DNA of 43,390 nucleotides, taken from the NCBI GenBank assembly GCA_016214845.1, contig JACRMS010000031.1, positions 1 to 43,390 of the forward strand, given 5' to 3'. The stretch comes from Nitrospirota bacterium. Its GTDB lineage: Bacteria > Nitrospirota > Thermodesulfovibrionia > UBA6902. Below the pieces are notes generated by a model. It saw only the letters and a list, made by a program, of their open reading frames with translations. It was not told where the DNA came from and did not search any database. The position numbers were made by a program, and so were the translations under genes. Below, in pieces: positions 5,802 through 43,390 of the stretch (position 1 is its first letter; the number at the start of each line of letters is the position of its first letter).

Positions 5802-5840
5802 TCTTGCCCTCTACTTTCTTTAACTAACTTTGACTTGATA

Positions 5841-5851: not shown

Positions 5852-5864
5852 CTAAATCCCCAGG

Positions 5865-6045: not shown

Positions 6046-6088
6046 GTCCTACCATTGCCCCTTTCCTTAAAATCGATTACACGCAATC

Positions 6089-6175: not shown

Positions 6176-6342
6176 TTAAACCACCTTTTCCTATTCAACA
6201 TTAACTGAGTATCAACCTTCTTAATCCAATCAGCGTTATCTTTAAAAGGCCCCTTACAAAAATATCGTCTCTGATGTTCTGTCAACAAACATTCATAGAC
6301 ACGATGACACTTATTACATTTGCACTCATAAACATTCGGCAT
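6166..6342 (-). CDS. 58-residue Cys-rich zinc-ribbon protein (prophage)
   Basis: ATG at 6342 shares one base with the TAA of the Zot gene, and GGGGGGAT lies just upstream, so translation is coupled to Zot. Cysteines form a CKC..C cluster (7, 9, 12), then Cys18, Cys29 and Cys57; ECKCNKCHRVYECLL resembles a zinc ribbon. This is the fourth small Cys-rich protein in this phage and the only one on the morphogenesis strand. Function unknown. Confidence 0.6.
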   Translation of the reverse strand: MPNVYECKCNKCHRVYECLLTEHQRRYFCKGPFKDNADWIKKVDTQLMLNRKRWFKCV

Positions 6343-7196: not shown

Positions 7197-7197
7197 T

Positions 7198-8370: not shown

Positions 8371-8735
8371 CGAAGGACTATCCTTCCAAACCAAAAAGTA
8401 AGATAAAAAGAAATCAGATATCCCATGAGAGTTGCGATTTCAACGATAGGAAGGAAGTACGCCGCATATTGAAAAAACTCATACTGCGACAAAGAAGGTA
8501 TATTGACCGTATACACAGGAAGGACACTAACAAGACCTAACGCCATAGCTAAAAAGAAATCAACAAGCATTTGAATGAAGCCCATAAAAATTGTATAGAA
8601 CCAACAAATAATCGGTTGTAAATAAGTCTCAATGAGACTGGCAAACCACAACCAGACATCATCAATAGTATCAGTGAGGGAACAAGATTGAAGTAAGAAA
8701 ACAAATGGGACATACAAAAATACTTTCTTTCTCAT
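8349..8735 (-). CDS. pVI-like multi-span phage membrane protein, possible lipoprotein
   Basis: 128 residues from ATG 8735, which overlaps the preceding stop by four bases. The N-terminus MRKKVFLYVPFVFLLQSC looks like a lipoprotein signal with Cys18 as acceptor. It is followed by three hydrophobic stretches and a basic end (FGRIVLRWLKVIR). In inoviruses the gene between pIII and Zot usually encodes pVI, a minor coat protein of about this size, so that role is likely from position. The 3' end overlaps the 5' end of the pIII-like gene. Confidence 0.6.
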   Translation of the reverse strand: MRKKVFLYVPFVFLLQSCSLTDTIDDVWLWFASLIETYLQPIICWFYTIFMGFIQMLVDFFLAMALGLVSVLPVYTVNIPSLSQYEFFQYAAYFLPIVEIATLMGYLISFYLTFWFGRIVLRWLKVIR

Positions 8736-9088
8736 AGCACATACTCCAAAAGATGCCGAACAATCTGCAAACACACAAGAGCCAACAACACCCATCGAAA
8801 CGAGATCATAAAGGCATCAACAACAGGATTATCCATAAAAGCAAGAGGAACATAAGTTGACCCAAAAAAAGTAAAGGTAAAATCAGTTGGAGACTTTTGA
8901 GAGACACCCTGAATATCTACAAAAATATCAACAGCCGCCATAAGTAGAGAAAGAGGAAAATATTGAGTAGCAGAATCCTTCCAAGCATTAAAAGAAGTAT
9001 CATCAAACGTGACAAGTGAAGAATCACACTCGGCATATGACACGGACGAAATAAGAACCAAAAAAATTACTATTAAAACTGCTTTCAT
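8732..9088 (-). CDS. Secreted single-span phage minor structural protein
   Basis: 118 residues with a signal peptide (MKAVLIVIFLVLISSVSYA, cut before ECDSS), a polar exported middle and a C-terminal membrane helix (WVLLALVCLQIVRHLL). The ATG at 9088 has AAAGGA about nine bases upstream. It follows the major coat gene and precedes the pVI-like gene in a tightly packed, coupled block. A second tip protein or an adsorption partner of the pIII-like protein is plausible; no named family is recognised. Confidence 0.6.
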   Translation of the reverse strand: MKAVLIVIFLVLISSVSYAECDSSLVTFDDTSFNAWKDSATQYFPLSLLMAAVDIFVDIQGVSQKSPTDFTFTFFGSTYVPLAFMDNPVVDAFMISFRWVLLALVCLQIVRHLLEYVL

Positions 9089-9161
9089 AAAATATTTCCT
9101 TTCTGTGAATTTTTAGAATCTTGAACAGGTTGGCCAGACCCATCCAAGTTAAGTCCACTGC

Positions 9162-9362
9162 TTACCTTGCAATTCTACGGACAACCTTAAACGCAAGCGG
9201 AACGCCCACGATAAGGCCAACCAGCGTAACAAACGCAGGGATAGCAGTGTTAATCTCTGAGGTTATCGCGTCAGCTACGCCAGCGTAATCAACAACAGCA
9301 AAAGCCATTGAAGACATGGCAAGCATGGCAACGAGAACCAAACCAAGACTTAACTTTTTCAT
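9162..9362 (-). CDS. Inovirus major coat protein precursor (pVIII-like)
   Basis: 66 residues from ATG 9362, with a strong GGGGGTG ribosome binding site five bases upstream. A signal peptide (MKKLSLGLVLVAMLAMSSMAFA) leaves a mature protein of 44 residues. The mature part has a short acidic amphipathic start (VVDYAGVADAITSEI), a membrane span (FVTLVGLIVGVPLAFKVV) and a basic DNA-facing end (RRIAR). This size and charge pattern is diagnostic of filamentous-phage major coats, thousands of which sheath the ssDNA. Longer in-frame starts reach to 9506, but they give a Leu/Phe-rich frame that belongs to another gene. Confidence 0.88.
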   Translation of the reverse strand: MKKLSLGLVLVAMLAMSSMAFAVVDYAGVADAITSEINTAIPAFVTLVGLIVGVPLAFKVVRRIAR

Positions 9363-9396
9363 TTTGACACCCCCTTTCATTTTGAATTTCTTCCAG

Positions 9397-9498
9397 CTAA
9401 GCCAGAAGATTTTTGATAATACGTATGACAAAATAAAAAGCAAGCATAGGAGCAACAACTTTAACAAAAACCTGAAAACCTTCAACCACAATATCCAC
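9397..9498 (-). CDS. 33-residue membrane protein, candidate pVII/pIX-type minor coat
   Basis: GTG at 9498 follows the previous stop by four bases, with GAGGTG five bases before it. The product is a 33-residue single-span protein beginning MDIVVEGF and ending FVIRIIKNLLA, very like the 32-33-residue minor coat proteins that cap filamentous virions. Its place directly before the major coat gene agrees with pVII/pIX order in Ff phages. The alternative overlapping frame gives an implausible Leu/Trp-rich peptide. Confidence 0.65.
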   Translation of the reverse strand: MDIVVEGFQVFVKVVAPMLAFYFVIRIIKNLLA

Positions 9499-9502
9499 AG
9501 CT

Positions 9503-10069
9503 TCACCTCACCGCCAAAAGAAATAAACCAAGGAACACAAAACCAAAAAAAATACCTAAAGCTAACTTACTATCATTCTGAGTAGTTACAGCCATAGAGC
9601 AATCATAAAAAGAAGGAAACAGAAGCTCAACTGAAGAAACACCCCTGACAATAATGCGGCCAAGTTCATCAGATGTACCCCTATAAAAAAACCTCATATC
9701 AGAAGCTACAGGCATTGTCTGATTGCTACCATCACGGCCATTAAAATTTATCTCCCCGGAAGATAATGTAGAAGCTTCAAAACCGCAGTTATATTCAACT
9801 CCATTTCTCAACCCTGTAACAGTAAAAATATAAACCCAAGCACTACCGGGGCTTAAAGGCGCGTAACTTTGATTATCATAAAGAACAACAGAACCCGTAC
9901 CCTCTGCATAACAAAAAGACACAGAAACAAAAAGAGCAAAAAGAACGCCGAGGATTTGAACAAACAAATCCTTGACGTTCTTTTCCGGGGAGAGGGTAGT
10001 GACGCTTAAACAAGCCCCAAGCATACGTTTAGCACTACCTCGCAACATTGTGAATATCCTGTTCTTCAT
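9503..10069 (-). CDS. Secreted, membrane-anchored phage protein of unknown role
   Basis: 188 residues. A basic N-terminal region of about 33 residues precedes a signal-like segment (VKDLFVQILGVLFALFVSVSFCYA). A beta-rich exported domain of about 110 residues follows, then a C-terminal membrane span (ALGIFFGFVFLGLFLLAVR). The ATG directly follows the stop of the ssDNA-binding candidate. An internal start nearer the signal segment (Met8 or Met16) is possible. It sits among virion genes, so a structural or host-contact role is likely, but no family is recognised. Confidence 0.6.
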   Translation of the reverse strand: MKNRIFTMLRGSAKRMLGACLSVTTLSPEKNVKDLFVQILGVLFALFVSVSFCYAEGTGSVVLYDNQSYAPLSPGSAWVYIFTVTGLRNGVEYNCGFEASTLSSGEINFNGRDGSNQTMPVASDMRFFYRGTSDELGRIIVRGVSSVELLFPSFYDCSMAVTTQNDSKLALGIFFGFVFLGLFLLAVR

Positions 10070-10270
10070 TTAAACCTCAAAAGCCATCTTTACAAGAGCA
10101 CTGCATTTGAATTTCTTCACTTCACCAGGCCTTTGACCCGGTTGTTTTGCAAAAACCATGATGACATCTTTCCCGGACTTATCAGGCCTCGAAACCAGAA
10201 GATTAACCCAATTTTTACCCTTTTGACTTATTCCTGCACTAATTACCTCACCTTCTACATCAAAGACCAT
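10070..10270 (-). CDS. Putative phage ssDNA-binding protein (gene V-like)
   Basis: A 66-residue, beta-rich, basic protein (GEVISAGISQKGKNWVNLLV, then two further strand-like stretches) with the size and charge of a small OB-fold ssDNA-binding protein. Filamentous phages need one to coat single-stranded genomes before assembly, and the gene usually lies just before the coat genes, as here. ATG at 10270 has GGAGG nine bases upstream. The assignment is by position and composition, not by a recognised motif. Confidence 0.5.
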   Translation of the reverse strand: MVFDVEGEVISAGISQKGKNWVNLLVSRPDKSGKDVIMVFAKQPGQRPGEVKKFKCSALVKMAFEV

Positions 10271-10291
10271 TCTTCAGTACCTCCATTTAAA

Positions 10292-10717
10292 TTAATTTTT
10301 ATTAACTAAGGGTGAACAGGACACCACATCTTTGTAAGAACCTCGAATCTCATAACCACGCTTTTCAAGAACTTTGATAACCTCTTGAATTTCAAGGTCA
10401 TCATTGCGTTTTTTGACCTTAAAACCATAAAACTGAAGAAATTCAATAAGAGCACCATCATTGTATTTATCTTCAACGCTAAGCTTAAACTGAGACACTT
10501 CAATAGGGTAGCGTTTATCAAGAAGCCTTAAAATGCAACCAACACGCTTGGAGGAAAAGCCGATATCTTCTAACAATTCACGGAAGGTTTGACGGGTAAA
10601 GGTTACATCAATGTCTTCATCCTTATGGATAAGACGGAACCTTGATTTAAGATTGCAGAGCTGTTCGTCTAACTTGATAATTAAGAAAGCCATTCCCGAT
10701 AAGAACCTTTCGGACAA
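10292..10717 (-). CDS. Hypothetical phage protein, first gene of the leftward operon
   Basis: 141 residues from a TTG at 10717, or 133 from the ATG at 10693; neither start has a good ribosome binding site. The sequence is mixed helical (FTRQTFRELLEDIGFSSKRV, then DGALIEFLQFYGFKVKKRND), with two segments suggestive of small DNA-binding helical units. As the gene nearest the right att site and the head of the phage block it could be a regulator. No family is recognised. Confidence 0.6.
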   Translation of the reverse strand: MSERFLSGMAFLIIKLDEQLCNLKSRFRLIHKDEDIDVTFTRQTFRELLEDIGFSSKRVGCILRLLDKRYPIEVSQFKLSVEDKYNDGALIEFLQFYGFKVKKRNDDLEIQEVIKVLEKRGYEIRGSYKDVVSCSPLVNKN

Positions 10718-29111: not shown

Positions 29112-30044
29112 TTATCTGTGAAATCTGCGGCTGATCCTCTTTTTTCTTTTTACTACCGCGTGGCCGCCGAATTCATTTCTCAGGGCCGCGAGGAGTTTTA
29201 CGGAAAAGGAAGCGCTCTGTCTTGACGAGAACCTGTTGAACAGCGAAAGCGCTGTGATGGGCGCGGGCACTGACGTATCAATGGCCTGCTGCACTGTCCA
29301 CCTTCCCTCGCCTGAATCTTCCACGTATCCTTCAATTCCGGAAAGGTCCTTGTCTTTCCTGAAGGCGTCCTCTGCGAGTTCAAGAAGCCACGAGCGCACA
29401 ACACTGCCCCGGTTCCAGAGATGAGCTACGTCAGCCGGATTCAGGTCCTTTCCGTATGAGGAGGAATGTAAAATCTCAAACCCCTCGCCGTAGGCAGCCA
29501 TCAAACCGTATTCGATCCCGTTATGCACCATCTTCACAAAATGTCCGGCTCCCGCTGTCCCGCAGTAAAGATATCCGTCCTTCAGCGCGAGTGTTTTCAG
29601 GACGGGCTCAATTTTCTTATACACTTTTTTGTCGCCGCCTGCCATGAGACAGTAGCCTTCCTTCAATCCCCAGACCCCGCCGCTGACGCCGATGTCCAGG
29701 TAATTTATACCTGATGCTTGAAGCTGCCGCTCATGACGGATATCGTCTTTATAGAAACTGTTCCCCCCGTCAATGATCGTGTCACCTTTTTGCAGGATGT
29801 TTTGCAGTTGATCAATGGTCTCATCAACGGCTTTTCCAGCGGGAATCATCAGCCACACCACCCTCGGAGGTTTCAAAAGTTTGGCAAGATCATCAAGAGA
29901 GTAAGCGGTGGCTGCTTTGTATTTCTTGATCTCTTTCAGCTTCTCTTTTGATCTGTCATAGGCAACTATCGAGTGCCCGCCCTGTATCAAACGCCTCGAC
30001 ATATTCATCCCCATTTTGCCCATGCCGACCATGCCTATCTTCAT
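29112..30044 (-). CDS. gnd: 6-phosphogluconate dehydrogenase, decarboxylating (short GndA type)
   Basis: Oxidises 6-phosphogluconate to ribulose 5-phosphate and CO2 in the oxidative pentose phosphate pathway. 310 residues from ATG 30044 (GGAGG five bases upstream), the short form often NAD-linked, rather than about 470. The Rossmann motif is GMVGMGKMG. Substrate and catalytic segments DGGNSFYKDD, SGGVWGLKEGYCLM and GAGHFVKMVHNGIEYG hold the catalytic Lys and substrate His/Asn. The C-terminal helical domain ends in a basic tail. It lies apart from zwf and tkt, with the cytochrome b complex and the large kinase-like gene between. Confidence 0.93.
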   Translation of the reverse strand: MKIGMVGMGKMGMNMSRRLIQGGHSIVAYDRSKEKLKEIKKYKAATAYSLDDLAKLLKPPRVVWLMIPAGKAVDETIDQLQNILQKGDTIIDGGNSFYKDDIRHERQLQASGINYLDIGVSGGVWGLKEGYCLMAGGDKKVYKKIEPVLKTLALKDGYLYCGTAGAGHFVKMVHNGIEYGLMAAYGEGFEILHSSSYGKDLNPADVAHLWNRGSVVRSWLLELAEDAFRKDKDLSGIEGYVEDSGEGRWTVQQAIDTSVPAPITALSLFNRFSSRQSASFSVKLLAALRNEFGGHAVVKRKKRISRRFHR

Positions 30045-30060
30045 ACTATCCTCCATTAAA

Positions 30061-30105
30061 GTTCAAAAGCACAAAAGAGCAGAAGTGCGGAAGCACCCTG
30101 CTTCC
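30061..30105. repeat. Period-8 word repeat and small hairpin upstream of gnd
   Basis: Four octamers in a row, GTTCAAAA, GCACAAAA, GAGCAGAA, GTGCGGAA (30061-30092), belong to the same word family as 23991-24067. The last copy leads into a 6-bp hairpin (30089-30094 with 30100-30105). It fills the gap between the cytochrome b gene and gnd. Confidence 0.65.
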
Positions 30106-30109
30106 AGCT

Positions 30110-31738
30110 TCAGGATATATTTTTCCTGATCCTTAATCCACCCTGGACAAGAAGAATAATAACATAGATAACCAGTACCACAATGAAAAAATTTGCGGGT
30201 TCCATGCCGGGGTCGATCAATTGCGCGCGGTCAACGCCGTTCAGTTTTAATACATAAGCCTCAATGTTTGAGATCTGCTCCTGCGTAAGCGAATTGGTGT
30301 CTCCAAATGCAGGCATACTGAAAGCGGGCTTAGGGCCTTCCGGCACAGAGCCGTGCTGGATAAATTTGTCGATGGTTATGGTGAAGGTCTGGAGGTCCGG
30401 GGCGAATATTTCCCTGTCGATAGGATTAAGCGGCGGCACTGTGCCGTCCTCTGATCCGAGATTTGGAGTGCCGCCTTTTCCGTCAGCGCCGTGGCATGAC
30501 ATGCATTGCTGCTTGAATAATTCAGCGCCGTTTTCAGCGCCTCCGATTATGAACGCCGCGCGTCCCGGCATTTTTCCGGCAGCGGCTTCAGTCTCTGAAG
30601 TTTTTTCTGCCGGAGATTGTGATGATGAAGCATCGGGAGGCGCGGTCTCTGGCTTTACAGGCAATGAACTTAAAACGCCGGGGGGCAACTGGGCGAATCC
30701 AGTACTCAGATAACCCTTTACGGTAAACGTCAGGAGGAACCCGACATACAGCACGAGACAGGCCATTGCTATCGGGCGTTTAAACGGATTTCTTTCCGGC
30801 CCCCTGTCAATAAAGGGCAGCAGTATCAGCAGGGCGATCAATACATTTGGAACACCCACAGTGCCGACCGGTTCAAGCGGGCCTTCGAAATATTTAAGAC
30901 TCTCGTAGAGGAACAGAAAATTCCATTCCGGCTTCGGCAGATACGTGGTATTCAAAGGGTCTGCGGCCCCGGTAAAGGGCGGCGGCGCAAATACGCACAA
31001 GGCAATGAGAATAAAAACCACCAGAGATGCCGTCACAGCATCCTTGTATGCCTGGTCTGGCCAGAACAGGCCGGTGACCTTTCTCTTCTTTTCGTCCCAC
31101 GGGCCCGCTATCCCGGAGGTGCGGAATGATATAATGTGCGCAGCTATCAGCAAAACGATTACTGAGGGAAGAAGCCAGATATGTATCGCGAAAAAACGCG
31201 AGATGGACAATTGTCCCATAGCTTCACCGCCTCTTAAAAGTATCTTCATTAGATCGCCCAGCACAGGGACCGTGCTTGTAACGCCGGAGGAAACTTCTCC
31301 GCCCCAGTAACCTTTCTGGTCCCAGATCAGGGTCCCGCCTGTTAAAGTCATGGCCATTGTGGTGAGGACAAGCCCCACACCTAAAAGCCAGGTAAGCTGT
31401 GTCTTGTAAGCGGCCCATATGTAAACCCTTATCATGTGCGTAACGACAAGCACAACCATAGCGTTCGCGCCCCAGTAATGCAGGTTGTGTACCAGCCAGC
31501 CGAACGGCACCCGCGTCCGCAAATAACTGACGCTGTCGTACGCGTGGTCCGCGGCGGGCACATAATAAAAAAGCTGCACGATGCCTGAGATCACCTGTAT
31601 CGTAAAGACAGTAATGATCGCGGAGCCAAGGGTGTAAGCGAATTTCGCCCCTCCGGGAAGCTCTTCATCAAGCAGTAAATGCCCGATCTTTTCGATAGGC
31701 CATTTCCCCTTTAACCAGTCCCACGCGAGCTTTATCAT
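30110..31738 (-). CDS. Cytochrome b - cytochrome c fusion subunit of a quinol-oxidising bc-type complex
   Basis: 542 residues. The N-terminal 350 form a complete cytochrome b with eight or so helices; haem ligands His87/His101 and His186/His201 have the 14/15 spacing of cytochrome b6. The Qo loop reads PEWN (271-274 region) instead of the usual PEWY. A Pro/Ser/Ala-rich linker (about 360-395) joins a c-type cytochrome domain with CMSCH (412-416) and a likely Met ligand in FSMPAF. A last membrane helix near the C-terminus anchors it. With the Rieske protein just upstream it makes a two-gene quinol:cytochrome c-type complex in which the c1 role is carried by the fused domain. Confidence 0.9.
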   Translation of the reverse strand: MIKLAWDWLKGKWPIEKIGHLLLDEELPGGAKFAYTLGSAIITVFTIQVISGIVQLFYYVPAADHAYDSVSYLRTRVPFGWLVHNLHYWGANAMVVLVVTHMIRVYIWAAYKTQLTWLLGVGLVLTTMAMTLTGGTLIWDQKGYWGGEVSSGVTSTVPVLGDLMKILLRGGEAMGQLSISRFFAIHIWLLPSVIVLLIAAHIISFRTSGIAGPWDEKKRKVTGLFWPDQAYKDAVTASLVVFILIALCVFAPPPFTGAADPLNTTYLPKPEWNFLFLYESLKYFEGPLEPVGTVGVPNVLIALLILLPFIDRGPERNPFKRPIAMACLVLYVGFLLTFTVKGYLSTGFAQLPPGVLSSLPVKPETAPPDASSSQSPAEKTSETEAAAGKMPGRAAFIIGGAENGAELFKQQCMSCHGADGKGGTPNLGSEDGTVPPLNPIDREIFAPDLQTFTITIDKFIQHGSVPEGPKPAFSMPAFGDTNSLTQEQISNIEAYVLKLNGVDRAQLIDPGMEPANFFIVVLVIYVIILLVQGGLRIRKNIS

Positions 31739-31746
31739 GTGTCCTT

Positions 31747-32283
31747 TTATACCCTCACCTTTTGAGTTGTCCCGACCTTAAACTGTTCCCACTGAACATA
31801 CACCGCCCCATTTTCAACTTTATGACCGAGCGTGTCCAGTGGCCGGGGGGCCGGACCCGCGATAATACTGCCGTCAATGGAGAACGCGCTCGCATGGCAG
31901 GGGCAGGCGAAGACCCCTGCTTCGTCTTTCCACGTGTAATGACACCCGAGATGCGTGCAAATCGGCGAGAAGACCGTAACTTTGTTCTGTGAATGTTTTA
32001 TTATCCACACCGACCTTACGCTTTGCCCGATTATATAGGCGTCTTCGGTGCGAGTAAGAAAATTTATGTTCCGGGGTATTCCCACAGGCAATGAATTTAT
32101 CTCAGCGACCCTGACCCAGTCTGATCTTTGCGGGGGCGCGGCGCGGATCACCGTTCTCAGGAAAGGGACGCCGATCACAAGTGCGTTTACCGCGTAAAGG
32201 ACGCCGATCAGCCACTTTAGAAATGAGCGGCGCGAAGTTTCCGTTTGTTCCGTTATTTCAGCTTGAGGCGCGGCATGTTTCAT
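31747..32283 (-). CDS. Rieske 2Fe-2S protein of the bc-type complex
   Basis: 178 residues; the high-potential iron-sulfur subunit that takes one electron from quinol at the Qo site. A twin-arginine-like signal anchor (SRRSFLKWLIGVLYAVNALV) precedes the cluster motifs CTHLGCH and CPCHASAF. The usual Gly after the second CPCH is Ala here, and the GPAPRPLDTL loop is intact. ATG 32283 is divergent from the large + strand gene; its stop lies eight bases before the cytochrome b start, so the pair is one operon. Confidence 0.93.
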   Translation of the reverse strand: MKHAAPQAEITEQTETSRRSFLKWLIGVLYAVNALVIGVPFLRTVIRAAPPQRSDWVRVAEINSLPVGIPRNINFLTRTEDAYIIGQSVRSVWIIKHSQNKVTVFSPICTHLGCHYTWKDEAGVFACPCHASAFSIDGSIIAGPAPRPLDTLGHKVENGAVYVQWEQFKVGTTQKVRV

Positions 32284-32290
32284 TTAAAAA

Positions 32291-32318
32291 ATCCTATCAC
32301 TTATTTTTTCAAAGTCAA
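32291..32318 (-). promoter_or_regulatory. Candidate promoter of the Rieske-cytochrome b operon
   Basis: On the - strand TTGACT (32318-32313) and TAGGAT (32296-32291) are 16 bases apart. The -10 box ends only seven bases before the ATG and contains the sole AGGA that could be a ribosome binding site. If the promoter is real the message would be nearly leaderless. Confidence 0.45.
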
Positions 32319-32335
32319 GCAAACCTCGTTGAAAG

Positions 32336-32365
32336 TTGACGCGTTCTGTGATAAATAAATATTAG
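32336..32365 (+). promoter_or_regulatory. Candidate promoter of the 1452-residue kinase-like gene
   Basis: TTGACG (32336-32341) is followed after 17-18 bases by an AT-rich -10 (ATATTA/TATTAG). It lies just upstream of the ATG at 32378 in the 94-bp divergent spacer. No good ribosome binding site is visible. Confidence 0.45.
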
Positions 32366-32377
32366 AACAAATACAAA

Positions 32378-35300
32378 ATGCCCGACCCTATCAACATATG
32401 CAGCCTCGATTATCTCACAGGGACCCTCGCCACAGCTTATAAAGGCCTCATTACCTCGCTTGTAGTCAAAGATTTTTGCATAACAGAGGAAAACAACTCG
32501 GCCGTCGTGAAAGGCGCCATACTGTCTATGCCGGCGGGTGAATACCATGCATCTCTTATGCACGAAGGCGCGGAGCTCGCAAGGGAAAAGGTCCGCGACG
32601 GATATTTTGAGTTGAGAACGGACAGCGCGACCGTAAGGGAAGTGAAGAACCTTCAGATCGACATCATTCAGAGAGGCAGGCATATCGGGACTTTCCTGCT
32701 TAAGAGCGATAAAAAAGGAGATTTCTTTGTCCCCGCTGTTGATCTCTCACGAGAGCTTTCGGGCGTCAACTTTAAAAGTCTCACCTCGTTCCTGCAGGAA
32801 AACACCGGGCTGTTAAGAAATGCCGAGGGCCTTGTTTCAAAAATACTTTCATCTAAAAAAGACTGGACCAGGTTGTCCGAAGACATAAACAGTTTTTCAA
32901 AAGACATCTTCTGGACAAGCAAAGACGCCCATGCCGCGTGGTTCCGCGTATTGGTCAGGTATGCGATTAAGGCGTGCGAAAACACAGGCGCCGCTGCGTC
33001 TTATAAGCCGGTGTCGAATTTACTTTCGTTAATTGAGCTGCCGCTTGAAAATGGACCCGGCCTTCAGAGATTGCGCAGCCTTACGGATATATGGCTGGAT
33101 GAGTTGAAAGGGAAATCACTGTCCCTCTCCTGTCAGTTCAGGCAGACGGTGAGGATTATAAAGGCCATACACGAAAAGTTCCCTGACGCTGAAATCGGCC
33201 CTGTGCTAAGGTCAATTATAAACTCGGTAAAGGACAGGCTATCGGAGACCCCGGTCATCAGCAATGAAATGTTTAATGCGATGAAAGGTCTTTTGACCGG
33301 AGACGATCTCCATCTTCTATTTAAGTATGGGACCAGCAACAGTGAAAATATACTTCGTGAATTATCAGTCTCTGAGGAGATGCTGGAGAAAAAAAACCAT
33401 GCCGGGGTCCTCGATAAATTGGGAAGCCTCGAACTTTCACTTCTTAATGATACTGTCATGGTTGACGAATTGTTCAGCGTTATTGAGCCTCGTCTTAATG
33501 AGCAATCCTCGGAAAAACTGTCCGGTGTTATATCTGAATTATTCCCTTTCCTGAAACGGTTGTCCGCAGACGCACACAATAAGGCCCTAAAAAACATTGC
33601 CGGACTTTTAAAGAAATTGATCGGTCTGAATATGACGGAGCTGTGTGAAACCCTGATGGCGCGTATTGAAACCTTCCCCGCGTCAAGGGAAGATATTTTC
33701 CTTGACCCTGAAGTCGCCCGGTCCATGCTCAGCGCCGGAGGCGGCAGGCTTTTGAAAATGTACAAAGATATTCTCAAAAAGACGGTGATACCCTCTTCCC
33801 GCGTCACCGGATTTTCAACCGATACATGGACTGAGATGGTGGACCCGCAGCACCTGTTGCGGCTGTCGAAATTCTTACGCATTATAAGCCTTGACAGCGG
33901 CCGTTTCCGGGACGTGCTTGTGCATGTCATCTGCAACCTGCATATCAGCGGCGTGTTCATACCTGACGATAAGCTCTTTCAGCGGGAGGTCTCGACGTAT
34001 ATGAACGCGGACGGCTTTATGAATAATTTCCTTCTCAACTATATGCTTCTGAAAAAACTGCCGGTCTATTTTAACGAAGTCGGAGCTACAGGGAGGATAA
34101 GGGATTACACGACTGAAATAGATTCCTGGGGCAATGACCAGGTCCTCTACTTTTTAAGAAAACAGGTCCATGCAAATGCAAGCAATTACAATATCAGGCT
34201 TGTTGAGGGTATCATCAGCGCCTGGGTCTACGATGACCCGGAACTCATGAAGGGGTCTGTGCCGGAGGACGTAATTCAAAGACTGGACAGGCGTCTCTCA
34301 GCAGAGTACTCCTCCGCAATAAGGCCCCTGTTTGAATCTTCCGGCATACTCGACAAAGAAGGCCTGCATTTTGACAGGCTTTTTTTAATTGATGAAGATG
34401 ACCTTCGATCAAAATTAAATACCAAGAACATCCGCGATGAAATACATTTAAAGATCTTCCTGCTTTGCAAGATCTACCGGGAGCTCTGTAAAAAATATTC
34501 TTCAGCCTCCACGCATATTGAAATCCCTGATGTTAACCGCGCGTTATCTGAAGATATAGAAAAGATGGAAGGTCTGATGGAGATAATCGGGGCGGTGGAG
34601 AAGACACTGCCCGTGGAATCACTGTTTTTCAAAAGGCATATCGCGTTCGGCATCCCCTCGGTAATGGGGTCTTTTCACGAGGCGAAGTTTGACGCGTTCA
34701 GCGGGCTCTTGCGGATTGAAGAGAGGCTGAGGACCATAATTGAAGGAATTATCACTGACGCGGACAGGGGAAAAGAAAGCCTGTCTTCGGATAAAGCAAT
34801 TGAGCGGGTCCGCTGTCTTGAATATGCTGAACGTATTTTCAGGCTGCACGGCCTGAGCAATTTCCAGGTAGACGAACTTGTTACCATCTTAAAGACAAAC
34901 AAAATGCGTGTATCACAGGTGATCGATTCGCTCAGGATGTGGCAGAAGGAACTTGCATGGATGGTAGACTCTTTGCACCGGACCTTTCACGGGCCTCTCC
35001 TCGGGATACTGAAGATATTACCTGAAAGCGATCTGCCCGAATATCTTAAAGTGTTAACAGAGAATAAAGATGATTTCGCGGACAAGGCAGCGGACATAAT
35101 TTTCAGGGACATCATGAGCAGCATAACAGGATTCCTTGAGCTCGACAGGCTCCTTGACAGCCTGCTGACGTCGCTGAATTTAATGCTCCAATCAGGCAGC
35201 GATCCGGTCTTATCGTTTTCTGAGGGTGAGGTCCTATCAGCGGATTTCTATGTAGTCAGCGGACTGAGTGAAGCGGACGCAATGAGACTCGCTCCGGCCA

Positions 35301-36736
35301 TAGGCGGGAAAATGAAGAACCTCGTTTATCTTTATCACAAGGGAATCCCTGTCCCCCCTGCCGTTGTCTTCCCGGCGGCATGGACGCAAAATTGTCTGGA
35401 ACAAACAGAGGACGCGGACTTTGAATCAACATTGAGGCTGGCGGTAAAGGAGATCGAATCCCGGTCGTGCCTGACATTCGGGGGCGATAAAACTCCGCTG
35501 TTTTTGTCCGTAAGGAGCGGCTCATATATTTCAATGCCGGGAATACTGTCATCAATCCTGTACTGCGGGATGAACAGAAAGACTGTGGAAGCGTTCATCA
35601 TGGAAAGGGGAAACGCGCTTCTTGCCTGGGATTCTTACAGGAGGTCCATCGAGGATTTCGCAACTGTTGTTTACCGCATCGAGATGAAATTCTTTGACGA
35701 CATAACAGCCGGATTCATGAGATCAAGGGGCGGCCCATCCGGGCCGGATGCATCCGATATGGAAAAGTTATGCGCCATTTATTCTGCCGAACTGGCAAAG
35801 GTTGGAATTAAAATTCCCGATGACGTGTATGAGCAATTGAAGCAATCGGTAAAGGCAATTTACGCTTCCTGGTACTCTGAACGCTCCGTGCAGTTCAGGA
35901 AGGTGATGAACGTTTCAGACTACTGGGGAACTTCAGTGGCGCTTATGCAGATGGTCTACGGCAATGAGGCCGGGGCCGGGGCCTCGGTGTTTTTTACCCG
36001 AAACCCCTTTTCGCTTGAGAAGGGAATTCATGGAGACACAAGGGAGGCAGCAACAGGCAGCGATATTGTTTATGGAAAATTCACAAACCGGCCGCTTGCA
36101 AAAGGACAGGCGATGGAAGGCATCCGGAGTCTCGAAGAAATTGATAACGCGCTTTTCATGCAGCACAATGAGCTTGCAGAAAAAATCGAAGAAGCAATGG
36201 GCGGGCTACCCCAGGAGGTGGAAGTCACTTACACAAAAAATCCTGACGGCAGGAGGGTGCTCCATGTGCTTCAGACAAGACGCATGGAAACCCACAGGGG
36301 CTTCACAAAGACGTTCCATGATGTTTGCGATATGGGATCGAAAATAATCGGCAGGGGCGCTGGTGTGCACGGCGGCGCCTTAAGCGGTTTCGCGGTTTTT
36401 TCGGTCCAGCCGGGATCTATAGAAAGACTGAAGAAAGAGCTTAACCTTCCGGCTATACTTTTAAGAGAAATGGCCAGCACTGACGATGTTTCCCTTATGC
36501 CTTATATCGATGGGATCATCACTGCTGCCGGAGGGGTCGCATCACACGCCTCTGTTCTTGCCCAGAAATTCGGGCTCACCGCAGTTGTCGGCTGTTCCAT
36601 TATGGAATTTATAACAAACGAGAGTGGAGAGACTTATGCCGTGCTCGGAGACAATACCGTAAAAGAAGGCACGCATATAAGCCTTGACGGCTCTACCGGA
36701 CTTGTCTATTCCGGCCTGTGCCTGCCGGTTTTATAA
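32378..36736 (+). CDS. 1452-residue protein with C-terminal PPDK-like ATP-grasp and phosphohistidine domains, no PEP barrel
   Basis: The C-terminal third resembles pyruvate phosphate dikinase. It has GGKMKNLVYL...GIPVPPAVVF (about 977-1000), LFLSVRSGSYISMPGI (about 1041), VFFTRNPFSLEKG (about 1203), the metal-binding EVEVTY...LHVLQTRR (about 1285-1300), and a swivelling domain with catalytic His1390 in AAGGVASHASVLAQKFG. The family's C-terminal PEP/pyruvate TIM barrel is missing: the protein ends about 60 residues after the histidine. Residues 1-125 look beta-rich; 125-960 are mostly helical, without a domain I recognise. It probably uses ATP to phosphorylate its own histidine, but the phosphate acceptor is unknown. 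It lies between bc-complex genes and zwf/tkt and is the only large + strand gene on this side. Confidence 0.85.
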   Translation: MPDPINICSLDYLTGTLATAYKGLITSLVVKDFCITEENNSAVVKGAILSMPAGEYHASLMHEGAELAREKVRDGYFELRTDSATVREVKNLQIDIIQRGRHIGTFLLKSDKKGDFFVPAVDLSRELSGVNFKSLTSFLQENTGLLRNAEGLVSKILSSKKDWTRLSEDINSFSKDIFWTSKDAHAAWFRVLVRYAIKACENTGAAASYKPVSNLLSLIELPLENGPGLQRLRSLTDIWLDELKGKSLSLSCQFRQTVRIIKAIHEKFPDAEIGPVLRSIINSVKDRLSETPVISNEMFNAMKGLLTGDDLHLLFKYGTSNSENILRELSVSEEMLEKKNHAGVLDKLGSLELSLLNDTVMVDELFSVIEPRLNEQSSEKLSGVISELFPFLKRLSADAHNKALKNIAGLLKKLIGLNMTELCETLMARIETFPASREDIFLDPEVARSMLSAGGGRLLKMYKDILKKTVIPSSRVTGFSTDTWTEMVDPQHLLRLSKFLRIISLDSGRFRDVLVHVICNLHISGVFIPDDKLFQREVSTYMNADGFMNNFLLNYMLLKKLPVYFNEVGATGRIRDYTTEIDSWGNDQVLYFLRKQVHANASNYNIRLVEGIISAWVYDDPELMKGSVPEDVIQRLDRRLSAEYSSAIRPLFESSGILDKEGLHFDRLFLIDEDDLRSKLNTKNIRDEIHLKIFLLCKIYRELCKKYSSASTHIEIPDVNRALSEDIEKMEGLMEIIGAVEKTLPVESLFFKRHIAFGIPSVMGSFHEAKFDAFSGLLRIEERLRTIIEGIITDADRGKESLSSDKAIERVRCLEYAERIFRLHGLSNFQVDELVTILKTNKMRVSQVIDSLRMWQKELAWMVDSLHRTFHGPLLGILKILPESDLPEYLKVLTENKDDFADKAADIIFRDIMSSITGFLELDRLLDSLLTSLNLMLQSGSDPVLSFSEGEVLSADFYVVSGLSEADAMRLAPAIGGKMKNLVYLYHKGIPVPPAVVFPAAWTQNCLEQTEDADFESTLRLAVKEIESRSCLTFGGDKTPLFLSVRSGSYISMPGILSSILYCGMNRKTVEAFIMERGNALLAWDSYRRSIEDFATVVYRIEMKFFDDITAGFMRSRGGPSGPDASDMEKLCAIYSAELAKVGIKIPDDVYEQLKQSVKAIYASWYSERSVQFRKVMNVSDYWGTSVALMQMVYGNEAGAGASVFFTRNPFSLEKGIHGDTREAATGSDIVYGKFTNRPLAKGQAMEGIRSLEEIDNALFMQHNELAEKIEEAMGGLPQEVEVTYTKNPDGRRVLHVLQTRRMETHRGFTKTFHDVCDMGSKIIGRGAGVHGGALSGFAVFSVQPGSIERLKKELNLPAILLREMASTDDVSLMPYIDGIITAAGGVASHASVLAQKFGLTAVVGCSIMEFITNESGETYAVLGDNTVKEGTHISLDGSTGLVYSGLCLPVL

Positions 36737-36740
36737 AAAC

Positions 36741-36846
36741 CGTGATGCGTAATCCGTAATGCGTTATGGGTAAAAAGTTATGGGTAATGCGTTATGCGTC
36801 ATGAGTTGTTTTTCCACCCATCACGCTTTACGCATCACGCATTACG
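36741..36846. repeat. Period-7 word repeat hairpin (CGTAATG type), nine plus four copies
   Basis: Nine consecutive heptamers of the form (C/G/A)GTNATG or close run from 36741 to 36803 (CGTGATG, CGTAATC, CGTAATG, CGTTATG, GGTAAAA, AGTTATG, GGTAATG, CGTTATG, CGTCATG). Four more, inverted, fill 36819-36846. The two arms can form a long imperfect hairpin. It sits between the convergent ends of the kinase-like gene and zwf, where it could end transcription of both. Confidence 0.8.
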
Positions 36847-36852
36847 GTTTAT

Positions 36853-38400
36853 TTATTCCGTAATCCATTGGCGGCCATCCTGTTCGATCAGGTCCACGGC
36901 TTCCGGAGGGCCCCAGGTGCCTGCCTCATAATTCGGGAAATTTGCCGCGGGAAGGCTTTCCCATATTTCAAGGATCGGGTCGACAACTCTCCACATCTCT
37001 TCAATGCCGTCTTCCCTGACGAAGAGCGTAAGGTCCCCTTTTATGCAATCGGTGAGCAGTAATTCATACGGCGGGGTGAAGTTTGTCTTAAACGTCTCAC
37101 GGTAATTGAAGACCATATTCACTGGATAGAGCTGGTTATGCGAATACGGATATTTCACTCCAAGGCGCAGCGATATCTTTTCATCAGGCTGAATGGTCAG
37201 GACAAGGATATTCGGGTCAAGCGCGTCGCAGTCGCGTCCCAAAAGCCTCAGCGGCAGGCGCTTGAACTGGATGCATATTTCAGTTACGCGTTTCGGCAGG
37301 CGTTTCCCGGTGCGCACATAAAACGGGACCCTGCCCCAGCGGAGGTTGTCGATATAGAATTTCCCAGCAAAAAATGTCGGCATGTTCGAGTCCGCGGACA
37401 CATGGTTTTCCTGCCTGTACGGGAGGACGTCTTCCCCCTGTATCTTTCCCTGTCCGTACTGTCCTCTTACGAAAGAGACGTCTATATAATTGCTGTCCAT
37501 CTCCCGGATGGAACGCAGCACTTTGACCTTTTCGTCGCGGATGAAATCCGCCCTGAACCCTATGGGAAGCTCCATAGCCACAAGGCCCATGAGCTGCATA
37601 ATATGGTTTTGGACGATGTCCCTGATCACACCTGATTGCTCGTAGAATGCGCCCCTGTGCGCAATGCCGATGTCTTCAGCAACTGTTATCTGGACATTGT
37701 CTATATAACGGTGGTTCCAGCACTGCTCGAATATGGCGTTGGAGGAACGGAAAAAAAGTATGTTCTGGACCGTCTCTTTCCCGAGGTAATGGTCGATGCG
37801 GTAAATCCGGTCTTCGTTAAAAGCCGTGGTCAGTACCCTGTTGAGTTCCGAGGCCGACCTCCTGTCGCGGCCAAAAGGTTTTTCAACAATGACCTTTGTG
37901 TTGAAATCTTTGTTCAGGCCGTGCTGATTCAGTTTGCCGACAACGAGCGGACTGATCCGGGGAGGCACCGCGAGATAGTAAATGACGTCTTTTGTCCCGC
38001 CAGATGAGGGTATTGTGATGTGCCTGATCTTATCAGCGACATTCGTGTAGATGTCATCGGCTTCGAACCTGCCGCTCAGGTAAAAAAGATGTCCGCTGAA
38101 TTCATCCCATTTTTTTTCATCCGGGGGCCCGCCTGTAAATGTCTGAAACGCCGCTTTCATCACGGCCCGGTACTGTACGTCGGTCATTTCCTGCATGTCC
38201 AGGCCGATCACCGAAAAAGGCTTTTTGAGTTCTTCCCTGCAGAAAAGATAAAAGATCGAGGGCAGGAGTTTCCTTCTGCTTAGATCGCCCGCACCGCCGA
38301 ATATCACCATGGTGAACGGTTCGGGCCTTAACTCCTCGACAGGGATGTCACAAGTCTGTAAGAACTTGCTGAATATGATCTCTTCGTTCTTTGCGGTCAT
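36853..38400 (-). CDS. zwf: Glucose-6-phosphate 1-dehydrogenase
   Basis: First enzyme of the oxidative pentose phosphate pathway, making NAD(P)H and 6-phosphogluconolactone; 515 residues. The dinucleotide motif GGAGDLSRRKL and the active-site RIDHYLGKETVQN (catalytic His) are present, as are the conserved VIVEKPFGRD and VPFYVRTGKRL. ATG 38400 lies five bases after the tkt stop and has no clear ribosome binding site, so it probably depends on coupling to tkt. No 6-phosphogluconolactonase gene is seen in the window. Confidence 0.96.
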   Translation of the reverse strand: MTAKNEEIIFSKFLQTCDIPVEELRPEPFTMVIFGGAGDLSRRKLLPSIFYLFCREELKKPFSVIGLDMQEMTDVQYRAVMKAAFQTFTGGPPDEKKWDEFSGHLFYLSGRFEADDIYTNVADKIRHITIPSSGGTKDVIYYLAVPPRISPLVVGKLNQHGLNKDFNTKVIVEKPFGRDRRSASELNRVLTTAFNEDRIYRIDHYLGKETVQNILFFRSSNAIFEQCWNHRYIDNVQITVAEDIGIAHRGAFYEQSGVIRDIVQNHIMQLMGLVAMELPIGFRADFIRDEKVKVLRSIREMDSNYIDVSFVRGQYGQGKIQGEDVLPYRQENHVSADSNMPTFFAGKFYIDNLRWGRVPFYVRTGKRLPKRVTEICIQFKRLPLRLLGRDCDALDPNILVLTIQPDEKISLRLGVKYPYSHNQLYPVNMVFNYRETFKTNFTPPYELLLTDCIKGDLTLFVREDGIEEMWRVVDPILEIWESLPAANFPNYEAGTWGPPEAVDLIEQDGRQWITE

Positions 38401-38405
38401 GGGAA

Positions 38406-40238
38406 CTAAAGCAGTGCCTTTACTTTTTTAACAATAGCATTCTTCGATATGTTTTCGTAGTCGAGAAGTTCAGCGGGCTTTCCGCTCTTCGGGACCTTTT
38501 CTACGGCAAGAGAGTGTACCGGTATGTCAAAATCAGCAAGCGCGGTCCTGACAGCTTCACCCATTCCGCCCTCGATATGATGGTCCTCTACGGTAATTAT
38601 CGCACTGGTGATTCTTCCGGCTTTCTTGAGGGTTTTTACGTCAATGGGCTTGATGCTGTAAAGGTCGATCACCCGTATAAAAATATTGTCATTCTGTAAT
38701 TCCTCATACGCGGCAAGCGCCTCGTGCAGTGTTATGCCTGCTGCTGCTACGGTGATCACATCATTGTCCGACTGCTTTAATACCTTGCTTCCGCCGATAG
38801 GGAATTCCTCATCAGGGTTATAGATAACAGGTGTGTCTTTCCTCGTGGTGCGGATATAGACCATCCCTTCACGCGCGGCCGCCTCTTCAACGAGCTTATC
38901 AGTGGATACCGCGTCTGAGGGATAGAGCACGACACTGTTTATGATAGAGCGGAACATGGCGATGTCCTCAAGCCCCATCTGAGAGGGGCCGTCCTCGCCG
39001 ATGGACACCCCCGCGTGTGAACCGCAGAATTTTATATTAGCGCCGGAATACTGGCACATCCTTATCTGGTCATAGGCCCTGCTGAAAAACGCGGCGAAGG
39101 TTGAGACAAAGGGGAGCTTTCCGACCCGCTGAAGCCCGAGCGCTGCGCCGACCATATTCTGTTCAGCTATATACATTTCAAAGTATCTTTCTGGATATGC
39201 GTCCCTGAAAATTTCTGAATAAGTGGAATTGCTCACCTCGCCGTCCAGCACGACCATGTCCGGGAATTGCGGGAATATCCGTTTTAACGCCAAGCCGTAT
39301 GCCTTCCTTGTGGCAACCGCCTTGCCTGTGTCATAAGACGGCTTTTCAGCTTTTTGAGACGGGCGCTTTTCAACTGTCCTGTTTTCCGGTTTCGGGACAT
39401 CACCGCGTATAGCTTTATCCACCCCGGCGAATTCCTTCATAGCCTCCGCGAATCTTTCCTTGTCGAGCGGCTTGCCGTGCCAGCCGTTCTGGTCTTCAAC
39501 GCTCAAAACACCCTTGCCCTTTATCGTCTTTGCGATGATCATTACCGGCTTGTCTTTGACCTCGATGGCCCTTTCATACGCGTTTGTAATTTCATCCATA
39601 TTGTGTCCGTCGATCAGGATGGTCTCCCATCCGAAGGCGGACACCCTCTTTTCATAAACGGAAAGGTCGTGCCCGTACATTGTCTCGCCGCGCTGGCCGA
39701 GGCGGTTTACGTCCAGGATGCCGACAAGATTATCGAGCTTGTAAAAAGACGCTATCTCCAGCGCTTCCCATTGCGAGCCTTCGGCCATCTCGCTGTCGCC
39801 GATCAAAACATAAGACCTGCACGGAAGCCTGTCAACATATTTCGCACCCAGCGCCAGTCCAACTCCAATGGAAAGCCCCTGCCCCAGAGAGCCTGTGGCA
39901 GCCTCGGCATATGGAAATGATGCGGTGGGATGGCCTTCAAGCGGGCTTCCGAATTTCCGGTAAGTGAGCAGTTCCTGTTCCGTTAATTTCCCCGCTGCCG
40001 TCCACAGAGAATATAGAAGCGGGGTCGCGTGACCTTTTGAAAAGATCATCCGGTCGTTGTAAGGGGACAAAGGATTTTCGGCGTCATATCTGAAAGTCCC
40101 GCCGAACATCAGCCCGGTCATAAGGTCGGTTGCAGAAAGAGCCGAGGTTGGATGACCGGACCCGGCTTCATTTGTGGATATGAGAATATAATAACGTATC
40201 AGCTTTGCGAGCTTGTCGAGGTCGTTCCTGGCAGACAT
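38406..40238 (-). CDS. tkt: Transketolase
   Basis: A thiamine-diphosphate enzyme moving two-carbon units in the non-oxidative pentose phosphate pathway; 610 residues, the short single-chain form rather than the 660-residue E. coli type. ThDP motif GDSEMAEGSQWEALEIASFYKLDN, early GSGHPTSALSATDLM, and the pyrimidine-domain AEQNMVGAALGLQ with HAGVSIGEDGPSQMGLEDIA are present. The middle (about 280-310) is a Lys/Pro linker. ATG 40238 has AAGGAG five bases upstream and a promoter at 40330-40357. Confidence 0.95.
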   Translation of the reverse strand: MSARNDLDKLAKLIRYYILISTNEAGSGHPTSALSATDLMTGLMFGGTFRYDAENPLSPYNDRMIFSKGHATPLLYSLWTAAGKLTEQELLTYRKFGSPLEGHPTASFPYAEAATGSLGQGLSIGVGLALGAKYVDRLPCRSYVLIGDSEMAEGSQWEALEIASFYKLDNLVGILDVNRLGQRGETMYGHDLSVYEKRVSAFGWETILIDGHNMDEITNAYERAIEVKDKPVMIIAKTIKGKGVLSVEDQNGWHGKPLDKERFAEAMKEFAGVDKAIRGDVPKPENRTVEKRPSQKAEKPSYDTGKAVATRKAYGLALKRIFPQFPDMVVLDGEVSNSTYSEIFRDAYPERYFEMYIAEQNMVGAALGLQRVGKLPFVSTFAAFFSRAYDQIRMCQYSGANIKFCGSHAGVSIGEDGPSQMGLEDIAMFRSIINSVVLYPSDAVSTDKLVEEAAAREGMVYIRTTRKDTPVIYNPDEEFPIGGSKVLKQSDNDVITVAAAGITLHEALAAYEELQNDNIFIRVIDLYSIKPIDVKTLKKAGRITSAIITVEDHHIEGGMGEAVRTALADFDIPVHSLAVEKVPKSGKPAELLDYENISKNAIVKKVKALL

Positions 40239-41354: not shown

Positions 41355-42683
41355 TTAAAACCTGTATCCCGCCTGGGTAAACAGCGAAGTATTGTGATAA
41401 TCGTCTCCTTCATAACGCTCGGCAAACATTGAGAGAAAATAATTCTTGTTGATCTGCCAGTAAACAGAAGAGCCGTATGTGAGCGTGCCTGCTGTAAAGC
41501 CATTCTCGACTTCAAGCTTCTCCCTCTCCTTGCTCGCGTATACGGACACGTCGACTTTATTAAGGAAGTTGCGGGAAACCTCGACATTGAATTCATCGTT
41601 TTTCGAGGTAAAGTTATCTATGTGGGTATACCTGCCTGATAAGTCAAAACCGAAAAGGCCGTGCTTTGTGAAACCGCCAGTGTATCTAACGGCATGATCA
41701 TGATCAATGCTTCTGGTCTGATAAGCCGCTGATGCATATACATTGACCCCCTTTGGAAGCCTGTAATCCACCCTGCCCCCTGCCCTTGACTGGGAACTGG
41801 TATCCAGAAAATAGTTGTCCCTGTAATCAAAGTTGTTAAAGAACTTCTTTGAGGACTCAAAGTATTTGATGGCCTTGTAATAATCATAGAAGACCTGAAC
41901 ACGGAGGTCCCTTGTAATTGCATAGGACACATTCCCGGCAGCGTTCTCAAGCTCGAATTTATTTGTCACCTGGTTTCTGCTGACTGACGAGAGACCGTCC
42001 AATCTTACCTTGTCGCTTAAGGCAGCATTCAATCTCGCGGAGCAGTACTGCCTGTCAACTTCACCCTTGTACATAAGATTTTCGCAGCCGTAATATAACT
42101 GATATTTTTCCTGGTCTGCATATCCGTAAGCTCCGAAGGACTTGAATTTGCCGTCAATGGAATTGTCGTAGAGGTCAGGAGCAAGACCGCCGAAGATGCC
42201 GAACCCTACGCCCTTACTTATCTCATACTTTAAATTCAGGCCGTCAACATATGTGTTGAAAAGCTGATATATATATTGCCTGCCGATAATGACATTGAAA
42301 TTCTGCTGGAACTTGTAGCCAAGCCATAATTCATTTAGTCTCTTATTGAGAATATTGTCTCCGCCGGTTATTTTTTTCCTCAGCTCCCCATCAAGGTTAA
42401 AATAGAAACCCGGCTTTTCATCCTCATGTTTAAATAACCTGAGCTTTGATGACACGACTTGAAGATCGTTATTGCTGCTGTCTTTGGAATAAAAGTTGCT
42501 GACATAAAACCTGCCTTTAACGTTGCTCGCATGGATCATCAGAGGTACAGGTATTAACAGGATCAGCAAAAAGAGGACCTTCTTCAGCCGGGGAGAAGCG
42601 CTCCTTCTTATCCTCTTGCTCCAGTGGTGACGTGAAAGCCTCATTTCGGATCTTGTTTCTGCCTGTTTGTTTTCACTTTCCAT
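41355..42683 (-). CDS. Outer-membrane beta-barrel protein (porin-like)
   Basis: 442 residues from ATG 42683 (GAGG five bases upstream); ATG 42701 is also possible. A long basic N-region precedes the signal core (VLFLLILLIPVPLMIHA). The rest is a chain of alternating-pattern beta strands rich in Tyr, Phe and Gly with polar turns (RQYIYQLFNTYVDGLNLKYE, GVNVYASAAYQTRS), ending in Phe (TQAGYRF) as BAM substrates do. Frames reaching further upstream are noise opposite the cytochrome gene. It is smaller than MtrB-type conduit barrels. Neighbours suggest it houses or assists the multiheme cytochrome. Confidence 0.75.
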   Translation of the reverse strand: MESENKQAETRSEMRLSRHHWSKRIRRSASPRLKKVLFLLILLIPVPLMIHASNVKGRFYVSNFYSKDSSNNDLQVVSSKLRLFKHEDEKPGFYFNLDGELRKKITGGDNILNKRLNELWLGYKFQQNFNVIIGRQYIYQLFNTYVDGLNLKYEISKGVGFGIFGGLAPDLYDNSIDGKFKSFGAYGYADQEKYQLYYGCENLMYKGEVDRQYCSARLNAALSDKVRLDGLSSVSRNQVTNKFELENAAGNVSYAITRDLRVQVFYDYYKAIKYFESSKKFFNNFDYRDNYFLDTSSQSRAGGRVDYRLPKGVNVYASAAYQTRSIDHDHAVRYTGGFTKHGLFGFDLSGRYTHIDNFTSKNDEFNVEVSRNFLNKVDVSVYASKEREKLEVENGFTAGTLTYGSSVYWQINKNYFLSMFAERYEGDDYHNTSLFTQAGYRF

Positions 42684-42708
42684 TCTAACCTCTATATTCA
42701 TAGTCTTA

Positions 42709-43390
42709 TTAGTTACAGCCGTTCTTGCTCTTCGGGTTGTCCCAGTTATTTCCGTTATGGCACAGGGTGCAGGTATGAGAGCATGTTGTATGTTCTTCTC
42801 TGTAGTCACTCGCGTGACAAGCGTAGCAGTCAGTCTCAATAACCCCTGCATACTGTCCCGGATATCCGCTCTGGTGACATGAGTTGCAGGAGAGAGTGCC
42901 ATGCCTGTATAAGAACTGAAAGCTCTGATGAACATGCGCACCTGCCCATGAAGATGTTGTATGACATGATGTGCAGGTATGAGGATAACCCGCTGATACA
43001 TGGCTTGGCGCTGACTGAAAGTCGCTTGCGTGACAGGCGTAACAATTGTCGCTTGTTATACCGGCTATTGAACCGGGGTATCCAGTCGTATGGCACGTTG
43101 TACATGCAGTTGTGGCATGTATGCCTGAAAGCACGAATGTCTTGTGAGTGTACTTCGCAGGCGACCATGTTGTGTTTGTATGACAGTCCGCGCAGGTCTT
43201 GCTGAAGTTATTTGTAACATGCGAAGGAGATGTGACACTCTCGAATTTAGTAGTTGCAACTCCGGCAGTCGAATGACAGTTGTAACAGGCGCTGTCCGTT
43301 GTACCGGCAGGTATGGTCTTACCGGTGATATGGCATTCCGAACAGGTTGTCTTTATCGCGGAATGCGCCCCGCTGAATGAGAACGTGGGA
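42709..43390 (-). CDS. Multiheme c-type cytochrome (partial, at least nine haems)
   Basis: The frame is open to the window edge, so the start and signal peptide are missing. The visible 226 residues carry nine CxxCH haem sites: CSECH, CYNCH, CADCH, CTTCH, CYACH, CTSCH, CNSCH, CYACH, CTLCH. They fall in a repeating pattern of about 45-50 residues with two haems each: a CxxCH before a GYPG-type turn, then CYACH, then H...C..CH and Trp. Extra His residues between repeats could serve as distal ligands. It is the first visible gene of an operon with the barrel (stop to start 25 bases) and cytochrome b. Confidence 0.9.
   Translation of the reverse strand, partial: PTFSFSGAHSAIKTTCSECHITGKTIPAGTTDSACYNCHSTAGVATTKFESVTSPSHVTNNFSKTCADCHTNTTWSPAKYTHKTFVLSGIHATTACTTCHTTGYPGSIAGITSDNCYACHASDFQSAPSHVSAGYPHTCTSCHTTSSWAGAHVHQSFQFLYRHGTLSCNSCHQSGYPGQYAGVIETDCYACHASDYREEHTTCSHTCTLCHNGNNWDNPKSKNGCN

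Follow-up and report, generated by a model that had tools for sequence, protein, structure and literature searches.

Pyruvate phosphate dikinase (PPDK) combines an ATP-grasp domain, a swivel domain with a catalytic histidine and a phosphoenolpyruvate (PEP)/pyruvate barrel, and its swivel mechanism has been described (PMC5371819). Barrel-less relatives of PPDK with other phosphorylation targets are also known (PMC4844700, PMC12167813, PMC13400623), and the use of a different acceptor domain by a dikinase is established for rifampin phosphotransferase (RPH) (PMC4844700) and for HpeHI (PMC12167813). A further barrel-less relative is encoded by the 43,390-nucleotide stretch of DNA analysed here (the window), positions 1 to 43,390 of contig JACRMS010000031.1 from a Nitrospirota bacterium of the UBA6902 lineage (assembly GCA_016214845.1). 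Its gene is an open reading frame (ORF) of 1452 codons at 32378–36736 (+), a length and position confirmed by our check. A first reading of the letters without database searches (hereafter the original prediction) had described it as a giant PPDK-like phosphotransferase without its PEP domain. As judged from the analyses below, it belongs to an undescribed family of phosphate-transferring enzymes in which the ATP half of PPDK is retained and the acceptor half is swapped for a large, putatively helical domain.

The ORF is a real and conserved gene, far beyond chance, since 20 full-length homologues share 36–53% identity with it. Pfam recognised two domains only, PPDK_N at residues 1012–1238 (1.2e-17) and the PEP-utilizers swivel at residues 1358–1441 (1.1e-14). 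The PEP-utilizers_C barrel (PF02896) is absent from the protein in the Pfam search, and the C-terminus falls directly after the swivel. The top NCBIfam match was PPDK (TIGR01828) with 252 bits, which does not reach the equivalog cut-off of 843; the second best, NF004531, is a PPDK model of 534 positions spanning the ATP-grasp and histidine domains. Matches in the PDB were to PPDKs and their relatives only, over residues 960–1448. Together with the alignment described below, these searches delimit a PPDK-type ATP-grasp domain at residues 970–1310 (35285–36307, +) and a swivel, or phosphohistidine, domain at residues 1320–1449 (36335–36724, +). The predicted phosphohistidine, His1390, is encoded at 36545–36547 (+).

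A search with the N-terminal part found the family in 66 of 396 Nitrospirota genomes. A profile of the N-terminal core (residues 430–962) returned the same 66, with full-length frames of about 1360–1520 amino acids, and detected no core without a dikinase half in the 396 genomes; shorter frames are mostly on fragmented contigs. This distribution is that within Nitrospirota, the phylum that the searches covered in depth. A scan of genome contigs with single-sequence patterns found a sole relative, in the genome of Nitrospiraceae bacterium Ngb-4, and no relatives were found in viral contigs and plasmids. Literature searches for an ATP-grasp/swivel half joined to such an N-terminal core returned no description.

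The family comprises two subfamilies, which the original prediction missed. Subfamily A (about 1460 amino acids) includes the window protein and the 20 homologues mentioned above, and subfamily B (about 1390 amino acids) is about 30% identical to the window protein over residues 400–1447. When a tree is built from the ATP-grasp/swivel half, the sequences separate into three clades, A, B and PPDK, all of them fully or almost fully supported. Four genomes (G353, G371, G380, and G396) harbor both A and B, and remnants of B were detected in G380.

Catalytic residues were compared in an alignment of the window protein and the 20 other A proteins, 17 B proteins, and 15 canonical PPDKs from the same phylum. 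K978, R1046, R1088, R1089, E1282, Q1299, and H1390 are found without exception in all of these sequences, position E1280 is occupied by E or D, and His1390 is aligned with the catalytic histidine of PPDK. We take the conserved residues to be the ATP-site and phosphohistidine residues of the C. symbiosum PPDK, as mapped through the PDB alignment and general knowledge of PPDK. The histidine motif reads GGVASH in the window protein and GGATSH in the family consensus; the threonine two residues before the catalytic histidine is replaced by alanine in the window protein and four other A proteins. Given this conservation of ATP-site and phosphohistidine residues, the window protein is predicted to be an active enzyme. 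Both halves of the original claim, an intact ATP-grasp/phosphohistidine pair and a missing barrel, were thus borne out by Pfam, PDB, and residue conservation, and neither of the findings named as refuting it was made: the residues are not lost in homologues, and no separate barrel protein is present beside any of them.

The approximately 970 residues in front of the ATP-grasp domain matched no Pfam or PDB family; residues 1–200 and 430–962 in particular remained blank, profile searches included. They had been called unrecognised and mainly helical, and the first part of that description stands. Helicity is weakly supported: AlphaFold (AF2) models of residues 1–965 and 440–965, made with the window protein and one homologue (L021) as the only input, reached mean confidence scores (pLDDT) of 40 and 39, and the secondary structure in them fits a core made up entirely of helices, with some strands towards the N-terminus, where residues 34–119 probably form beta strands. 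Residues 1–200 (32378–32977, +) contain 27 columns invariant in the 21 A sequences and the highly conserved ICSLDYLxGTLATAYKG; the first 120 residues or so are missing from B.

By contrast with this A-specific segment, residues 430–962 (33665–35263, +) are common to A and B and form the proposed acceptor core. Across 38 sequences (21 A and 17 B), 28 columns of this novel region of about 530 amino acids are invariant. They are concentrated in two motifs: P-(V/A)YFNE(V/I)GAxGxxRDxST...FLRKQxH at residues 562–605 (34061–34192, +), with R575, T579, D582, D587, R594, K595, and H598 invariant, and ExxxxKRHIAxGIPSxxGxYxExKFD at residues 747–772 (34616–34693, +), with E747, K752, R753, H754, S761, E768, and K770 invariant. 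Eighteen of the 28 invariant residues are D, E, K, R, or H (binomial p 1.7e-4 against composition), and 11 are basic (p 1.2e-3). Such a charged set is the kind expected where an active site binds an anionic ligand, and it looks like a catalytic pocket.

Each subfamily travels with its own sugar-phosphate dehydrogenase. At every one of 17 B loci, the dikinase gene is followed on its own strand, after a small gap or overlap, by a gene for a divergent type-I glyceraldehyde-3-phosphate dehydrogenase (GAPDH) of about 426 amino acids, GAPDH2. Among 69 Nitrospirota genomes examined, GAPDH2 is present in each of the 27 that have B and absent from the 42 others (Fisher p 2e-19, calculated for 26 carriers). 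The catalytic cysteine and histidine are kept in 17/17 sequences, and an ordinary GAPDH is also present in nearly all of these genomes. GAPDH2 is hence best read, from its residues and its gene order, as a divergent but intact second GAPDH and the dedicated partner of B.

For subfamily A the partner is glucose-6-phosphate dehydrogenase (G6PDH, encoded by zwf). It was found in 24 of 24 A genomes against 18 of 45 others (p 2e-7), and two zwf copies occur in 15 of 24 against 0 of 45 (p 2e-9), with the proviso that an absence from a draft genome may be an assembly gap. Within the genus of the window, the three A carriers have two zwf genes, and the six other members have none or one. In the zwf tree, a 13-member clade with 100/100 support contains the window's zwf and is found only in A genomes, from five families. 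Its members are frequently surrounded by pgl, gnd, tal, tkt, and rpi genes. Only five of the 13 share a contig with the A gene and lie within about 25 kb of it, some others are on short contigs, and those of G009, G145, and G380 lie away from A.

In the window itself, this zwf (36853–38400, −; TIGR00871, 559.7 bits) is convergent with the dikinase gene, so the two do not form one operon. Next to it lies tkt, encoding transketolase (38406–40238, −; NF004559, 894 bits). On the other side lie genes for a gnd-like 6-phosphogluconate dehydrogenase (29112–30056, −; PF03446/PF00393), a cytochrome b (30110–31738, −), and a Rieske protein (31747–32283, −), the last two recognised by ORF and Pfam and divergent from the dikinase gene. 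The original prediction had taken zwf, tkt, and gnd as a hint of carbohydrate metabolism. This is supported at the level of the phylum, by the co-occurrence with G6PDH and the A-only clade, but not by adjacency: zwf and tkt are not conserved beside A, even within the window's genus, and A has no constant neighbour, its surroundings being complex I genes, a cytochrome oxidase operon, or pentose phosphate genes. A cytochrome oxidase marker, COX1, exceeded the cut-off in 22 of 24 A genomes and also in most non-carriers, and was discarded as unspecific; a role in anti-phage defence was rejected, PADLOC giving no match. Two observations concern the neighbourhood itself. Between the convergent dikinase and zwf genes, at 36737–36852, lies a 116-nucleotide imperfect hairpin of repeats of about 14 nucleotides (minimum free energy −47 kcal/mol, z −6.8), which may act as a bidirectional terminator or be a small repeat element. 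Genes of the oxidative pentose phosphate pathway recur beside cytochrome b/Rieske genes, sometimes with complex I, at loci L122, L124, L128, and L131 and in the window (29112–40238).

The reading we prefer, with a confidence that stands about midway between doubt and acceptance, is that these proteins are active ATP-dependent dikinases of a new family, in which the swivel hands phosphate on to the N-terminal core and the final acceptor is probably a metabolite of the sugar-phosphate type. As suggested by the conserved residues, ATP would bind the ATP-grasp domain and a phosphoryl group would pass to His1390 as in PPDK, with phosphate as a probable co-substrate and AMP and pyrophosphate (PPi) as products. 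The phosphohistidine would then be carried by the swivel to the core, which would take the place of the PEP/pyruvate barrel, and its Arg, Lys, His, Asp, and Glu residues would bind a negatively charged metabolite, a sugar phosphate or sugar-acid phosphate being the likeliest, and phosphorylate it; alternatively, the reaction could run in reverse and make ATP. Such an acceptor is proposed because basic residues are found among the invariant positions and because both branches have a sugar-phosphate setting; the branches probably act in central sugar metabolism, since each travels with its own dehydrogenase. A would serve cells that possess an oxidative pentose phosphate pathway together with a special G6PDH, and B would be made together with a dedicated GAPDH. 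A bolder reading, which is doubtful, is that of a new class of sugar-phosphate dikinases that would provide central carbon metabolism with an AMP/PPi-linked step of phosphoryl transfer, beside GAPDH in the case of B and beside the oxidative pentose phosphate pathway in that of A. As one example, B could interconvert 1,3-bisphosphoglycerate and 3-phosphoglycerate by way of ATP + Pi/AMP + PPi, and would then do for phosphoglycerate kinase (PGK) what PPDK does for pyruvate kinase.

Several points weigh against a metabolite-directed dikinase. The two branches share an invariant core, yet their dehydrogenases act on different substrates, for which a single small-molecule acceptor offers no simple explanation. 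PGK is present in 69/69 genomes and phosphofructokinase (PFK) in 68/69, which rules out replacement of either as judged from gene absence, and with the canonical enzymes nearly everywhere neither step is left vacant for the family to fill. The A gene and zwf do not share an operon. The zwf counts include a few second copies that are divergent or partial, and the phyletic p-values for zwf and GAPDH ignore shared ancestry. Separately, many of the 69 genomes encode a second, divergent PGK-domain protein (about 440 amino acids, about 260 bits against about 530 for the canonical enzyme), apparently independently of the dikinase.

The strongest rival, unlikely on balance but serious, is a regulatory histidine dikinase that would autophosphorylate at His1390 and use its N-terminal domain to dock on and control G6PDH (A) or GAPDH2 (B), with no metabolite being phosphorylated. 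There is a precedent in VadK (Rv1127c) of M. tuberculosis, which is derived from PPDK, lacks the pyruvate domain, autophosphorylates, interacts with enzymes of a neighbouring pathway, and works in central carbon metabolism (PMC13400623). The window protein resembles it in lacking the barrel and keeping intact ATP and histidine domains, for which NF004531 was the second-best NCBIfam model, and regulation of this kind would account for the pairing of each branch with a different dehydrogenase despite a common core. However, VadK consists of the ATP and histidine domains alone, without an acceptor domain, whereas here 970 additional, largely conserved residues include a core of about 530 amino acids with 28 invariant, mostly charged positions across divergent branches; one would expect divergence in a surface that has to dock on two different enzymes. 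In addition, A is often far from its zwf.

An improbable alternative is a dikinase directed at a polysaccharide or oligosaccharide at the start of glycogen use. The model for it is the plant alpha-glucan water dikinase, which has N-terminal non-PPDK domains, carbohydrate-binding modules, and a histidine domain that precedes the ATP domain. The window protein shares the N-terminal non-PPDK domains but has the ATP-grasp domain before the histidine, and Pfam and PDB searches of the N-terminal parts matched no carbohydrate-binding module, so the link to polysaccharides in the original prediction found no support. The sugar-metabolism setting of both branches would suit such a role, as would the alpha-glucan phosphorylase gene near B; that neighbour, however, is found at 3/17 loci only, and phosphorylase-family matches in 69/69 genomes do not track the dikinase family. 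Still less probable is a PPDK fusion that has degenerated and lost its catalysis but is retained for structure or sensing: the barrel is missing and the threonine preceding the catalytic Ser-His is alanine in five A proteins, window protein included, but the other ATP-site and phosphotransfer residues checked are conserved in both branches. That the protein is half of a split PPDK completed by a separate barrel protein is barely credible and largely refuted, for although the ATP half resembles PPDK and a canonical PPDK is missing from the assemblies of two A genomes (G000 and G332), no barrel ORF is found near any A or B gene at about 40 loci, PF02896 proteins occur in 22 of the 24 A genomes and in every B genome tested and are mostly ORFs of PPDK length (about 900 amino acids), and the source genome has no PF02896 match at all. 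In this 96%-complete assembly (G000), neither PPDK, PEP synthase, enzyme I of the phosphotransferase system, nor any other barrel protein is present, whereas all eight congeners tested have a barrel protein; this may reflect loss or incompleteness.

A number of differences from the known dikinases can be noted. PPDK (TIGR01828) is the best sequence match and shares the ATP-grasp and swivel domains, the catalytic residues, and the histidine, but the window protein lacks the barrel, carries about 970 extra N-terminal residues, and falls in a clade apart from PPDKs of the same phylum. RPH and related small-molecule dikinases likewise use an ATP-grasp domain and a swivel histidine to serve an unrelated acceptor domain (PMC4844700). 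In RPH, however, the RIF-binding domain stands between ATP-grasp and swivel; in the window protein the acceptor core comes first, the ATP-grasp domain runs straight into the swivel, and no RIF-binding-type domain lies between them. The RPH model matches at the histidine motif only (21 bits, cut-off 999), and a profile of the N-terminal core did not match the RPH structure. The two-component phenolic kinases HpeHI, CreHI, and PpsAB also combine ATP-grasp and swivel domains related to PPDK and PEP synthase with a non-pyruvate acceptor, but they are split over two proteins, have an RPH-like acceptor domain (HpeH), and act on phenolic substrates (PMC12167813). The original suggestion that something other than pyruvate is phosphorylated, as by RPH or water dikinases, is supported as regards the replaced acceptor domain; the named enzymes are mechanistic analogies only, with a different domain order and acceptor domain.

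Two other regions of the window deserve mention. At 4501–10717 (−), beside pheT and a gene for a CCA-adding enzyme, a cluster has the look of a provirus of a filamentous phage (inovirus type), with a REP_ORF2-G2P replication protein (5064–5798), a Zot-like protein (6342–7193), and small unrecognised ORFs. At 41355–43001 (−), beside a cytochrome b561-type gene, lies an ORF of 548 amino acids with no Pfam or NCBIfam match.

Small-molecule dikinases with varied acceptor domains were already known. What is new here is an acceptor domain without a detected relative, a domain order unmatched in the relatives compared, and a strict genetic tie between each branch and a dehydrogenase. Proteins of this kind are likely to carry a wrong annotation, as PPDK or PEP synthase. 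Should the acceptor prove to be a central metabolite, the core sugar metabolism of an environmentally important phylum would include an unknown reaction; should it prove to be a protein, dikinase regulation of central metabolism would extend beyond mycobacteria. The gene pair formed by B and its GAPDH makes the question of the acceptor directly testable.

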